From contig MPMX01000002.1 in the NCBI GenBank assembly GCA_002238725.1, positions 62,001-126,000 of the forward strand: 64,000 bases of DNA. Direction: 5' to 3'. The DNA comes from Rhodospirillaceae bacterium bin65. Lineage in GTDB: Bacteria; Pseudomonadota; Alphaproteobacteria; Bin65. Positions 57,008 through 63,108 of the stretch are shown here, in pieces. Numbering within the stretch: the first letter of the stretch is position 1; every line of letters begins with the position of its first letter. Both the position numbers and the translations under genes were made by a program. The notes under the pieces were generated by a model that was given only the letters and a program-made list of their open reading frames with translations, made no database searches and was not told where the DNA came from.

Positions 57008-59125
57008 CTACGCCGCCTCCCGCGTCCCGCGCTCCACGATGTCGACGATCTCGCTCACGATGGCTGTCAGGTCGAAGTCCTTGGGGGTGTAGACGGCGGC
57101 GACGCCGGCGTTCTTCAGGGCCTGTGCGTCGGCGGGCGGGATGATGCCGCCGGCGACGACCGGCACGTCGCCCAGCCCTTCGGCCGCCAGCCGTTCGACG
57201 ACTTCGCCGACCAGCGCGGCGTGGCTGCCGGACAGGATCGACAGGCCGACGATGTGGACGTCCTCCTGCAACGCCGCGTTGGCGATCTGCGCCGGGGTCA
57301 GGCGGATGCCCTCGTAGACCACCTCGATGCCGCAGTCCCGCGCCTTGACGGCGATCTGCTCGGCGCCGTTGGAATGGCCGTCCAGCCCCGGCTTGCCGAC
57401 CAGCATCTTGAGCCGCCGGCCGAGCCGCTGCGACAGGGCCTCGACCCGCCCGCGCACCGCTTCGAGCGCGGCGATGCCGTCGTCCGAAACCGGCCGGACC
57501 GCCGGGGCCGCGCCGACGCCGGTGGGCGCCCGGTAGAGGCCGAAGATGCCGCGCAGCGCCTCGCCCCATTCGCCGGTCGTGACCCCGGCATGGGCGCAGG
57601 CGATAGACGGCGCCATGACGTTGCCGCCGTCGCGCACGGTACGCTCCAGTCCGGCGATTGCAGCCCGCGCCCCGGCTTCGTCCCGCGCCGCGCGCCATTC
57701 CGCCAGGCTGGCGATCTGTGCCGCCTCGGCCGCCGGATCGACGGCGAGGAAGCCGCCGTCCCCGCCGCCCTCCCCGTCATCGCCGGTGAGCGGCGAGGGC
57801 GCGCTTTCGGTCCAGCGGTTGACGCCGACCACGGTCTGCTCGCCGGCCTCGATCGCTGCGACCCGGGCCGCGTTCGACGCGACGAGCCGCTGTTTCATGT
57901 AGCCGGACTCGACCGCGGCCACCGCCCCGCCCATCGCCTCGATCCGGTCGAGCTCCGCTGTCGCTTCGCGCTTCAGCTCCGCGACCCTGGCCGCGATCTC
58001 GGCCGAGCCGTCGAAGATATCGCCGTATTCCAGCAGGTCGGTCTCGTAGGCCAGGATCTGCTGCAGGCGCAGCGACCATTGCTGGTCCCACGGCCGGGGC
58101 AGGCCGAGCGCCTCGTTCCAGGCCGGCAGCTGCACCGCCCGGGCCCGCGCCCCTTTCGACAGGGTGACGGCGAGCGCCTCGAGCAGGATGCGGTAGACGT
58201 TGTTCTCCGGCTGCTGCTCGGTCAGGCCGAGGGAATTGACCTGCACGCCATAGCGGAAGCGGCGCAGCTTAGGATCGTCGACGCCGTAGCGGCTCTCGCA
58301 GATCTCGTCCCACAGCTCGGTGAAGGCGCGCATCTTGCAGATTTCGGTGATGAAGCGCAGGCCGGCGTTGACGAAGAAGCTGATCCGGCCGACCGCGGCG
58401 GGGAAATCCGCCGCCGGCACGATGCCGCGCACCCGGTCGAGCACCGCGACCGCGGTGGCGAGCGCGTAGGCGAGCTCCTGCACCGGCGTCGCCCCGGCCT
58501 CCTGCAGATGGTAGCTGCAGACGTTGATCGGGTTCCACTTCGGCGCCTCGCGGCAGGTGAAGGCGATCGTGTCTGCGGTCAGCCGCATCGAGGGCTCGGG
58601 CGGAAAGATGTAGGTGCCGCGGGAGAGATACTCCTTCACGATGTCGTTCTGGGTCGTGCCGGTGAGTTCGGCGCGCGTTGCCCCCTGCCGTTCCGCCGCC
58701 GCGATATAGAGCGCGAGCAGCCAGGGCGCGGTCGCGTTGATCGTCATCGACGTGTTCATCCGGGCGAGCGGGATATCGCGGAACAGGGTCTCCATGTCGC
58801 CGAGATGGGAGACCGGCACGCCGACCTTGCCGACCTCGCCGCGCGCCAGCGGGTCGTCGGCGTCGTAGCCGGTCTGGGTCGGCAGGTCGAAGGCGACCGA
58901 CAGGCCGGTCTGCCCCTTGGCCAGGTTGGTCCGGTAGAGTTCGTTCGACGCCGCGGCCGAGGAATGGCCCGAATAGGTCCGCATGATCCACGGCCGGTCT
59001 TTCGTGGGCCGGTCTTTCATGGGCCGGTCTTTCATGGGCCGGTCTTTCATGGGCCGGTCTTTCGTGGGCCGGTCTTTCGTGGGCCGGTCGCGATCCGGCC
59101 GGGCGGGCGGTGCTGTGTCGTTCAT
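57008..59125 (-). CDS. ecm: (2R)-ethylmalonyl-CoA mutase
   Basis: 705 residues from the ATG at 59125. The B12-dependent mutase core begins at PWIMRTYSGHSSAAASNELY and includes TGLSVAFDLPTQTGYDADDP. The C-terminal cobalamin-binding domain has D582-G-H584 (DGHSNGAEQ) and SILSGSH. The enzyme turns ethylmalonyl-CoA into methylsuccinyl-CoA. It is distinguished from methylmalonyl-CoA mutase by the single-chain short N-terminus and by ccr lying divergent. Residues about 13-45 are an unusual DRPTK/DRPMK repeat (see the 15-bp repeat). An upstream ATG at 59158 is possible. Confidence 0.9.
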   Translation of the reverse strand: MNDTAPPARPDRDRPTKDRPTKDRPMKDRPMKDRPMKDRPTKDRPWIMRTYSGHSSAAASNELYRTNLAKGQTGLSVAFDLPTQTGYDADDPLARGEVGKVGVPVSHLGDMETLFRDIPLARMNTSMTINATAPWLLALYIAAAERQGATRAELTGTTQNDIVKEYLSRGTYIFPPEPSMRLTADTIAFTCREAPKWNPINVCSYHLQEAGATPVQELAYALATAVAVLDRVRGIVPAADFPAAVGRISFFVNAGLRFITEICKMRAFTELWDEICESRYGVDDPKLRRFRYGVQVNSLGLTEQQPENNVYRILLEALAVTLSKGARARAVQLPAWNEALGLPRPWDQQWSLRLQQILAYETDLLEYGDIFDGSAEIAARVAELKREATAELDRIEAMGGAVAAVESGYMKQRLVASNAARVAAIEAGEQTVVGVNRWTESAPSPLTGDDGEGGGDGGFLAVDPAAEAAQIASLAEWRAARDEAGARAAIAGLERTVRDGGNVMAPSIACAHAGVTTGEWGEALRGIFGLYRAPTGVGAAPAVRPVSDDGIAALEAVRGRVEALSQRLGRRLKMLVGKPGLDGHSNGAEQIAVKARDCGIEVVYEGIRLTPAQIANAALQEDVHIVGLSILSGSHAALVGEVVERLAAEGLGDVPVVAGGIIPPADAQALKNAGVAAVYTPKDFDLTAIVSEIVDIVERGTREAA
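58992..59096. repeat. 15-bp tandem repeat in the ecm N-terminus
   Basis: Six copies of GGCCGGTCTTTCRTG (starts 58992, 59007, 59022, 59037, 59052, 59067) and a degenerate seventh (59082). On the minus strand each encodes DRP(T/M)K in frame. The unit replicates the KDRPW junction that precedes the conserved core, so it arose by slippage within the gene. Confidence 0.92.
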
Positions 59126-59388: not shown

Positions 59389-60696
59389 ATGAGCGGAGCC
59401 TCTCCCGTGGTCGAACTGGCCGAGCATCAGGAACCGGCCAACCCGCTGCTGCGCGGCGACAAGAAGGATCTCTACGAGGTCGGCGAGATCCCGCCGCTCG
59501 GCCATGTGCCGAAACAGATGTACGCCTGGGCGATCCGGCGCGAACGGCACGGCGAGCCCGAAACCGCGATGCAGGTCGAGGTCGTCGACATGCCGGAGCT
59601 GGACAGCCGCGATGTGCTGGTCTTCGTGATGGCCGCCGGCGTCAACTACAACGGCATCTGGGCTTCCCTCGGCACGCCGGTCTCGCCCTTCGACATCCAC
59701 AAGGCGCCGTTCCACATCGCCGGCTCCGACGCCAGCGGCATCGTCTGGGCGGTCGGCGAGAAGGTGCGCAACTGGAAGGTCGGCGACGAGGTCGTCATCC
59801 ACTGCAACCAGGACGACGGCGACGACGAGGAATGCAACGGCGGCGACCCGATGTTCTCGACCACGCAGCGCATCTGGGGCTACGAGACGCCGGACGGCTC
59901 CTTCGCCCAGTTCACCCGGGTCCAGGCCCAGCAGCTCATGCACCGGCCGAAGCACCTGACCTGGGAGGAGAGCGCCTGCTACACGCTGACCCTGGCGACG
60001 ACCTGGCGGATGCTGTTCGGCCACCGGCCGCACATCCTGCGGCCGGGCCACAACGTGCTGGTCTGGGGCGCCTCGGGCGGCCTCGGCTCGATGGCCGTGC
60101 AGCTGTGCGCGGCGACCGGGGCCAACGCGATCGGCGTGATCTCGGAGGAGGACAAGCGCGATTTCGTCATGTCGCTGGGTGCCAGGGGCGTCATCAACCG
60201 CAAGGAATTCGATTGCTGGGGCCAGCTGCCCGAGGTCGGCACCGACGACTACCGCGCCTGGTTCGGCGAGGTCCGCAAGTTCGGCAAGGCGATCTGGGAC
60301 ATCACCGGCAAGGGCAACAACGTCGATTTCGTGTTCGAACATCCGGGCGAGGCGACCTTCCCGGTTTCGACCTTCGTGGTGAAACGCGGCGGCATGGTCG
60401 TCTTCTGCGCCGGCACCACCGGCTACAACATCACCTTCGACGCGCGCTATGTCTGGATGCACCAGAAGCGCATCCAGGGCAGCCACTTCGCCCACCTGAT
60501 GCAGGCGTCCCAGGCCAACCGGCTGGTGATCGAGCGGCGCATCGACCCGTGCATGTCCGAGGTCTTCGCCTGGGAGGACATCCCCGAAGCCCACATGAAA
60601 ATGCGCCGCAACGAGCACAAGCCCGGCAACATGGCCGTGCTGGTCAGCAGCAAACGCCCCGGCCTGCGCACCATCGAGGACGCGATCGAGGAGTAG
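59389..60696 (+). CDS. ccr: Crotonyl-CoA carboxylase/reductase
   Basis: 435 residues, the usual Ccr length. It reductively carboxylates crotonyl-CoA to ethylmalonyl-CoA with NADPH. Family marks include HVPKQMYAWAIRRERHGEP, AAGVNYNGIWASLG, IWGYETPDGSFAQF, the cofactor motif VLVWGASGGLGSMAVQLCA and QKRIQGSHFAHL. The VNYNGIWA asparagine and QGSHFA histidine are among the CO2-site residues described for the family. It diverges from ecm, which uses its product after epimerisation. Confidence 0.93.
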   Translation: MSGASPVVELAEHQEPANPLLRGDKKDLYEVGEIPPLGHVPKQMYAWAIRRERHGEPETAMQVEVVDMPELDSRDVLVFVMAAGVNYNGIWASLGTPVSPFDIHKAPFHIAGSDASGIVWAVGEKVRNWKVGDEVVIHCNQDDGDDEECNGGDPMFSTTQRIWGYETPDGSFAQFTRVQAQQLMHRPKHLTWEESACYTLTLATTWRMLFGHRPHILRPGHNVLVWGASGGLGSMAVQLCAATGANAIGVISEEDKRDFVMSLGARGVINRKEFDCWGQLPEVGTDDYRAWFGEVRKFGKAIWDITGKGNNVDFVFEHPGEATFPVSTFVVKRGGMVVFCAGTTGYNITFDARYVWMHQKRIQGSHFAHLMQASQANRLVIERRIDPCMSEVFAWEDIPEAHMKMRRNEHKPGNMAVLVSSKRPGLRTIEDAIEE

Positions 60697-60732
60697 GGGG
60701 CGGGGCGGCTTCCGTTTCGGCCGGGGCGGGGC

Positions 60733-60753
60733 AGCAGAAAGCGCATTTCTGCT
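60733..60753 (+). terminator. Candidate terminator hairpin after ccr
   Basis: AGCAGAAA and TTTCTGCT form an 8-bp stem around GCGCA, 37 bp after the ccr stop. The following bases (TGACTTG) have few T residues, so termination strength is doubtful. Confidence 0.4.
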
Positions 60754-60777
60754 TGACTTGTCGACTGAAGAACATTA

Positions 60778-61404
60778 CATGAACTTGCATGACTGCTGCA
60801 AGCGGTTTTCCAGCGCTTGAAGCCCGGGTGGGCGGTGCTGCCGGCGAACGCTCGGGCATCCGGCAGAGTGCGCCCGGGCGGGGCGGCCGGGGCGGCATGG
60901 CAGAACATGACATTTCCTGACACCTGCCGAAGGCCTCCCCTCCGGCACCGCTGCAGCGGCGGCCATGTCGCCGCGCCCGAATGGCCGTCCGATGGGCAAG
61001 ACTTGGGAATTTATACGTAAAGCCGCCTTCGGCGGTTCGCGACTGTCAGAGCGGGAATGGCGGATTTCAGCGGATTCCGTGACGGAAAAGGGGCAAACGG
61101 CGCCGGGCCGATGAAAAAAAGTGCTATATAAAGACAGGTCTGTCTTAAGTTGAGCCGCGGCGGAGCATGACATTTCATGACACATCATGACATCCCGGAA
61201 CTTCTCTTGCGCCTCCCCGGACGGCGCGGAGCGACGATCCGGGGTCCGGGGACCACCCCGCAAGGCCCGAGCGTACGTCCCGAGCGCACGGCCCCTTCGA
61301 CAAGCTCAGGGCATGCTCCGGGCCCCGGCTCAAGGCCGGGGCGGCAGGGAGAGTGGAAGTGCAGGATCCTGACGGCTCATGACAATTCATGACATTTCAT
61401 GACA
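60778..61404. repeat. Four clusters of 10-bp-phased CATGACA motifs
   Basis: CATGAAC/CATGACT at 60778 and 60788; CATGACA/CCTGACA at 60906 and 60916; CATGACA at 61166, 61176 and 61186; CATGACA at 61378, 61388 and 61398. Spacing inside every cluster is exactly 10 bp. Most central copies sit in TCATGA, itself a palindrome. The region lies between ccr and an acyl-CoA synthetase gene. Confidence 0.85.
61131..61146. promoter_or_regulatory. Perfect palindrome downstream of a TATA-like box
   Basis: AAGACAG-GT-CTGTCTT is exactly symmetric. Immediately upstream is GTGCTATATAAAG. This has the form of an operator placed at a promoter, but no clear -35 is seen and no gene starts within 350 bp downstream. 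Confidence 0.45.
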
Positions 61405-61518
61405 CGTCCGCCCCTACCCTGCCTCTTCCTGGGCATCGGCCTCTTGCGATTCCGCGTGGCAGGCGGCAAGAACGGGCGGCTGTTGTTCAAGTGACGGGGC
61501 GAAGGGGCAGGCCCGACC

Positions 61519-63108
<1,590 letters not shown>

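Follow-up and report, generated by a model that had tools for sequence, protein, structure and literature searches.

We propose that the clusters of CATGACA units between ccr and the acyl-CoA ligase gene are probably recognition arrays for a phage-type, TerS-like DNA-binding protein, and that they form the 3' end of a dispersed element composed of an SOS promoter, a terS-like gene and the array. From the array statistics, the linkage to terS, the co-distribution among species, a second motif system, insertion polymorphism and SOS-type promoters, we infer direct binding of the TerS-like protein to its own putative sites, its assembly into a ring and, with less confidence, a purpose in packaging. 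The element carried by the window, which is the whole 64,000-nucleotide stretch analyzed here, is a gene-less derivative that retains the SOS promoter and three arrays and has acquired inserted REP-like modules (Table 1).

Table 1. Coordinates of the array-bearing region and its flanking genes in the window.
Feature	Position	Strand	Details
ccr	59389-60696		Flanks the element-bearing region
ccr to acyl-CoA ligase intergenic region	60697-61518	.	822 bp, carries the element; no credible ORF inside
TTGACT promoter-like sequence with LexA/SOS-type box	60753-60784	+	Box GAACATTACATGAAC at 60770-60784; box type also found 5' of the genome's own lexA
Array A1	60896-60925	+	Units CATGGCAGAA CATGACATTT CCTGACACCT
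Module F3	60926-61165	+	Dispersed repeat segment with arrays at both bounds; also at L163, L164, L170, L174, L180
TetR-type palindrome	61127-61144	+	TATAAAGACAGGTCTGTC, over a -10-like sequence; recurs in F3 modules
Array A2	61166-61195	+	Units CATGACATTT CATGACACAT CATGACATCC
REP-like hairpin module	61196-61367	+	CCGGACGG..GATCCGGGGTCCGGGG; CCCTTCGACAAGCTCAGGG
Array A3	61368-61407	+	Four units CCTGACGGCT CATGACAATT CATGACATTT CATGACACGT
Acyl-CoA ligase gene	61519-63108		Flanks the element-bearing region

Exact CATGACA units are located on the plus strand at 60906, at 61166, 61176 and 61186, and at 61378, 61388 and 61398. The region holds six pairs at a 10-bp distance, and none of 5000 first-order shuffles contained even one, which bears out the exact phasing noticed in an earlier, sequence-only reading; the two three-unit arrays that it placed 212 bp apart are likewise present as exact copies starting at 61166 and 61378. 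That reading counted four clusters, three of which stand as arrays, and the first (CATGAAC at 60778 and CATGACT at 60788) is better described as the LexA/SOS-type box GAACATTACATGAAC. Its second cluster, given as two copies, is indeed a 10-bp array but has three units, CATGGCA at 60896, CATGACA at 60906 and CCTGACA at 60916, and its last cluster contains, besides the three exact units, a fourth degenerate one, CCTGACG at 61368. About 11 bp downstream of A3 the alignment to an array-less ortholog begins; at the acyl-CoA ligase locus, arrays are found only in G000, G002 and G005. The palindrome TATA(T/A)AGAC(C/A)GGTCTGTC, resembling a TetR-family operator over a -10 box, recurs in the F3 modules at the loci given in Table 1. 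Elsewhere in the window (58990-59090), a methylmalonyl-CoA mutase-like gene on the minus strand shows in-frame 15-bp tandem repeats (KDRPM/KDRPT) near its N-terminus.

A genome-wide search for the motif at this period, which the sequence-only reading had put forward as a check, returned 55 exact CATGACA-N3-CATGACA pairs in the 4.29-Mb genome against none in the reversed control, and 142 against one when up to two mismatches were allowed, so that the motif is clearly not as frequent at random sites. Of the 111 same-strand CATGACA distances of up to 60 bp in the 230 kb around the arrays, 99 are exactly 10 bp. The unit consensus is C[A/C]TGAC[A/G]NNN, in which A2 is replaced by C and A7 by G, while C1, G4, A5 and C6 are almost invariant. 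Close relatives conserve the pattern: five same-genus genomes contain 39 to 56 exact pairs each, and none occurs in the sixth (G006) or in the other relatives searched. CATGACA arrays were also found in several Alphaproteobacteria MAGs of a public collection, some accessions of which match the same-genus genomes. Long CATGACAAC(A/T) arrays with a 10-bp period and up to eight units were observed in the unrelated Bacteroidota genus Dyadobacter (L036, L037, L046, L049).

Adjacent arrays share the same strand in nearly all cases. Their contexts include all gene arrangements, with positions between convergent genes as common as positions 5' of genes, and they show no promoter bias, being close to the downstream gene on either strand and far from the upstream gene, which speaks against promoter operators of any kind. 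A multi-site, Pho-box-like operator of an OmpR/PhoB-type response regulator, as suggested by the sequence-only reading, is therefore very improbable. Direct repeats about one helical turn apart are typical of this family, and TorR and CpxR sites also show a spacing of about 10 bp, which speaks for an operator; however, the arrays lie in every gene context, including many convergent gaps, rather than 5' of regulated promoters, the period is 10 and not 11 bp, no tie to a response regulator was seen, and the presence of arrays tracks that of TerS-like genes, both of which are missing in G006.

Genes that read into arrays usually have their stop codon inside the array (protein ends ..HDIS and ..HDKT). 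The main family of such genes belongs to PF03592, Terminase_2 (E 3e-11; PHROG 51, E 7e-13); the second array unit contains the stop codon, and the Terminase_2 helix-turn-helix (HTH) matches score 44.7 and 44.5 bits against a curated cut-off of 26.1. The phage relatives recovered with tblastn are annotated terminase small subunits with 28-45% identity. Structure prediction for the N-terminal 130 residues gave a model of moderate quality (pLDDT 72 overall, about 90 in the HTH), whose first 13 Foldseek matches in the PDB are small terminases, including 3zqq, 4zc3 and 2cmp; the E-values are weak (best 0.016) and the ranking is consistent. The SF6 DNA-binding domain fits the predicted model at 1.5 Å with 41% identity. 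The similarity to TerS is limited to the N-terminal HTH/core, and the tail of ~250 residues has no match.

The TerS-like genes are solitary, and their 12-kb neighborhoods contain housekeeping genes and no adjacent large terminase, the TerL genes being located elsewhere. G000 to G005 possess two to six copies each and G006 has none, exactly as for the arrays. Most of these genes are associated with an array that lies at the stop codon or a few hundred bp from it at most, much as phage pac repeats lie in or beside terS, and nearly all have arrays on their own strand; for several copies in genus g4 and a few in the window's own genus, no array was detectable within 400-900 bp. Most arrays, for their part, have no terS gene nearby. 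The position of the stop codons brings in another explanation, in which TGA at a 10-bp period serves to close every reading frame after small ORFs. Three units do place TGA in all frames, and the stops of genes and small ORFs fall inside arrays, but C1 and C6 are conserved as strongly as the TGA, many arrays have no preceding ORF, and the unit AAAGCCAANN of the AAAGCCAA arrays in another genus lacks a stop codon, which leaves this explanation hardly credible. In other MAGs (L055, L116, L118), genes of a second, unrelated family (MTATDPRP..., with a weak match to an uncharacterized PHROG) likewise end in CATGACA arrays, and short ORFs in L034, L043 and L063 resemble deletion remnants of it.

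Between the arrays lie dispersed modules in which homology begins and stops at arrays; these include REP-like hairpins and a TetR-type promoter module. In other MAGs, paralogous similarity extends ~400 bp upstream and stops at the array, so the array marks the 3' end of the element. Arrays are found at repeat boundaries, contig ends and synteny breakpoints, and several clusters coincide with breakpoints relative to a sister genome. In G004, for example, two direct arrays 44.6 kb apart (C35:112285 and 156844) have outer flanks that are adjacent in the window's genome, where a single array cluster joins them (L164), and arrays thus lie at both ends of the rearrangement. Insertion polymorphism is clear at the mnmE-parS-gidA junction: the mnmE-gidA spacing is ~95-135 bp in G006, G007 and G009, which carry no terS-array unit, whereas in G005 a unit of ~1.5 kb separates the mnmE stop from the parS-like palindrome, in G004 the terS-like gene is truncated and the arrays are kept, and in G001 and G003 the insertions are larger. 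Derivatives with an internal deletion, L128 and L079, kept both ends, the start of TerS being fused to an array-coded end. A group II intron (Rfam D1-D4-6) is located at L062:1-169, immediately 3' of a CATGACA array.

As in REP/BIME and MITE families, dispersed intergenic copies with common termini thus derive from a gene-bearing element, and no parental transposase was found. That the arrays are ordinary REP/MITE-like repeats, with the 10-bp units a mere part of the repeat that binds nothing specific, would agree with their position beside REP-like modules and at repeat boundaries, contig ends and synteny breakpoints. Against this stand the exact 10-bp spacing, the skewed substitutions that leave C1, G4, A5 and C6 almost fixed, the linkage to TerS genes and the fact that another genus shows this geometry with an unrelated motif; we consider the repeat explanation unlikely. 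The suggestion of the sequence-only reading that came essentially right is a decayed mobile element combined with a protein-binding array, given that the arrays are the 3' end of repeats linked to TerS-like genes; neither the SOS box nor the connection with TerS was noticed in that reading. Three other ideas were dropped: a structured RNA, since Rfam covariance models gave no match in the elements; a fixed canonical order of modules, since further loci had shuffled orders; and a site-specific cassette system for the module joints, since these are sufficiently explained by insertion of repeats or by recombination at arrays.

Solitary TerS-like genes also occur in other genera of the same family, where they are accompanied by different arrays, namely AAAGCCAANN in G008 and G010, AAGTAGGTGA in G010 and TTCCCCAACA-like units in G009. 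Such other 10-bp arrays are present at six of 12 TerS-like loci in genera g3 and g4, against a background of about five per Mb, and AAGCCAANNAAAGCCAA occurs 85 times in G008 and 36 times in G010, with no occurrence in the controls or in other genera. Extended arrays in g3, up to ~140 bp long, have steps of 10, 22, 32/33, 43, 54 and 64/65 bp, with one of 17 bp; in the CATGACA arrays of other MAGs, blocks lie 21/22, 32/33, 43/44, 54 or 66 bp apart in all 35 cases below 120 bp. Both motif systems therefore keep separate blocks on a helical grid of ~10.75 bp, although these counts include related copies, so that the independent events are fewer and the spacings may partly be inherited. No phasing was seen between distant arrays in the window's own genus. 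A helix-by-helix covariation of protein and motif was considered and rejected, as several g3 recognition helices share one motif and covariation exists at the lineage level only.

The promoter of the element points to SOS control. The sequence TTCCTATAT-N(6-9)-GAAC-N7-GAAC lies directly 5' of many, though not all, TerS-like genes, and at 18 of the 37 array loci of the window's genome the array is preceded by TTGAC..GAACATTATATGAAC in the same orientation. The LexA box of Alphaproteobacteria is GTTC-N7-GTTC (PMC3323433). The GAAC-N7-GAAC box matches that of the genome's own lexA (L322), which has GAACCAAAGTAGAAC in its upstream region, though not every copy of the element carries it.

The element would thus run from an SOS/LexA promoter through a solitary terS-like gene to an array of 10-bp units that contains the stop codon or begins just past it. 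The TerS-like protein probably forms a ring of HTH domains, around which the DNA would wrap so that one CATGACA unit per helical turn faces one HTH; the exact 10-bp spacing and the ~10.75-bp grid of blocks would arise because DNA wraps the ring in this manner. According to one account, TerS rings present their HTH motifs at intervals of about one turn of B-DNA and may have DNA wrapped around them, and the pac site of SPP1 contains direct repeats next to terS (PMC4737164); the P22 pac site lies inside terS (PMC9611059). The arrays suit this ring geometry better than they suit an operator model of any kind. In vitro, phage TerS proteins usually show weak binding to pac and little specificity, which counts against a reading of specific arrays.

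Upon SOS induction, the TerS-like protein might mark arrays as pac-like starts for the TerL encoded by a resident prophage or satellite; the element would then be packaged and spread together with neighboring chromosome. Such hitchhiking is made plausible by the SOS promoter, by arrays placed like pac sites and by the presence of genes for TerL and head proteins at other genomic loci, and we tentatively suggest a minimal packaging hitchhiker, consisting of an SOS-induced terS-like gene and a pac-like array with gene-less derivatives at ~40 sites per chromosome, through which phages, whether resident or invading, satellites or transfer agents would package and transduce many host regions; within this same tentative proposal, at least two motif systems, CATGACA and AAAGCCAA, would have evolved, and the arrays would be putative packaging signals. 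About equally possible is that the TerS-like protein binds the arrays as a domesticated regulator, a nucleoid-type wrapper or an anti-phage decoy with no role in packaging, and a purely selfish role is also conceivable. SPP1 TerS-pac complexes are reported as transcription repressors (PMC4737164), the solitary genes lie amid housekeeping genes, and a portal gene was found in only two of the seven genus genomes. However, the elements show high turnover, polymorphic insertions and derivatives with deletions, which looks like selfish behavior and not domestication; the arrays lack promoter bias, and TerL and capsid genes exist in both G000 and G001.

Searches with PF03237 and PF04860 had indicated that these genomes lack TerL, a conclusion overturned by PHROGs matches. 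G000 has a TerL at C37 and, on C68, an island with an integrase, a replication-initiator-like protein, TerL, major head protein, protease and portal, and similar islands exist in G001. These small islands, L326 (G000:C68:56000-73137), L328 (G001:C6) and L329 (G001:C16), share an integrase, TerL, an HK97-type head protein, protease and portal; no tail genes were seen in them, and they resemble capsid-forming phage satellites. A CATGACA array lies just 5' of the L328 integrase, and arrays are ~2 kb from L326. A further TerL (PHROG 38, E 2e-77) is located near a tail-fiber-like gene and unknown genes in L327:9318-13835 and L330, a locus kept in G000 and G004 with no obvious prophage around it.

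If the TerS-array reading is correct, small terminases have left phages and satellites and now exist as dispersed elements in their own right, with recognition arrays of their own on the chromosome, which suggests that a bacterial chromosome can carry many phage-style packaging marks or their relics. In sponge-associated Alphaproteobacteria it would account for rearrangement points and a large class of intergenic repeats, and it could indicate a chromosomal gene-transfer route. DNA recognition by TerS is poorly understood, since the phage proteins show weak binding and no clear motifs; TerS-type arrays that occur naturally and repeatedly, are defined in sequence, have two or more specificities and follow a clear helical grid would make the ring-wrapping ("nucleosome") model directly testable.

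Among openly available papers we found no account of solitary terminase small subunits with dispersed arrays, which is weak evidence of novelty. The pac systems of SPP1/SF6 G1P and P22 gp3 share with the present element an HTH protein of the TerS type, direct repeats located within terS or next to it, and DNA that may wrap a ring whose HTHs are spaced by one helical turn; here, however, the terS-like gene is solitary and multicopy, the exact 10-bp repeats occur at ~40 chromosomal loci, and the pac role is putative. PICIs and capsid-forming PICIs are also SOS- or phage-linked elements in which TerS redirects packaging, whereas the terS-array elements comprise a promoter, one gene and an array, with no integrase, AlpA, replication or capsid genes; the satellite-like islands of these genomes (L326, L328 and L329) lie elsewhere. 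Pho box and OmpR operators have direct repeats near one turn, and TGTCAT resembles the reverse complement of the unit, but the arrays lack a promoter link, have a period of 10 bp and follow TerS in their distribution. REP/BIME repeats, such as BIMEs with IHF sites, and MITE-like repeats are likewise dispersed, modular, intergenic, protein-binding arrays with gene-less derivatives, but the parent gene in the present case is TerS-like, not a RAYT or a transposase, and the arrays are exact 10-bp direct repeats.
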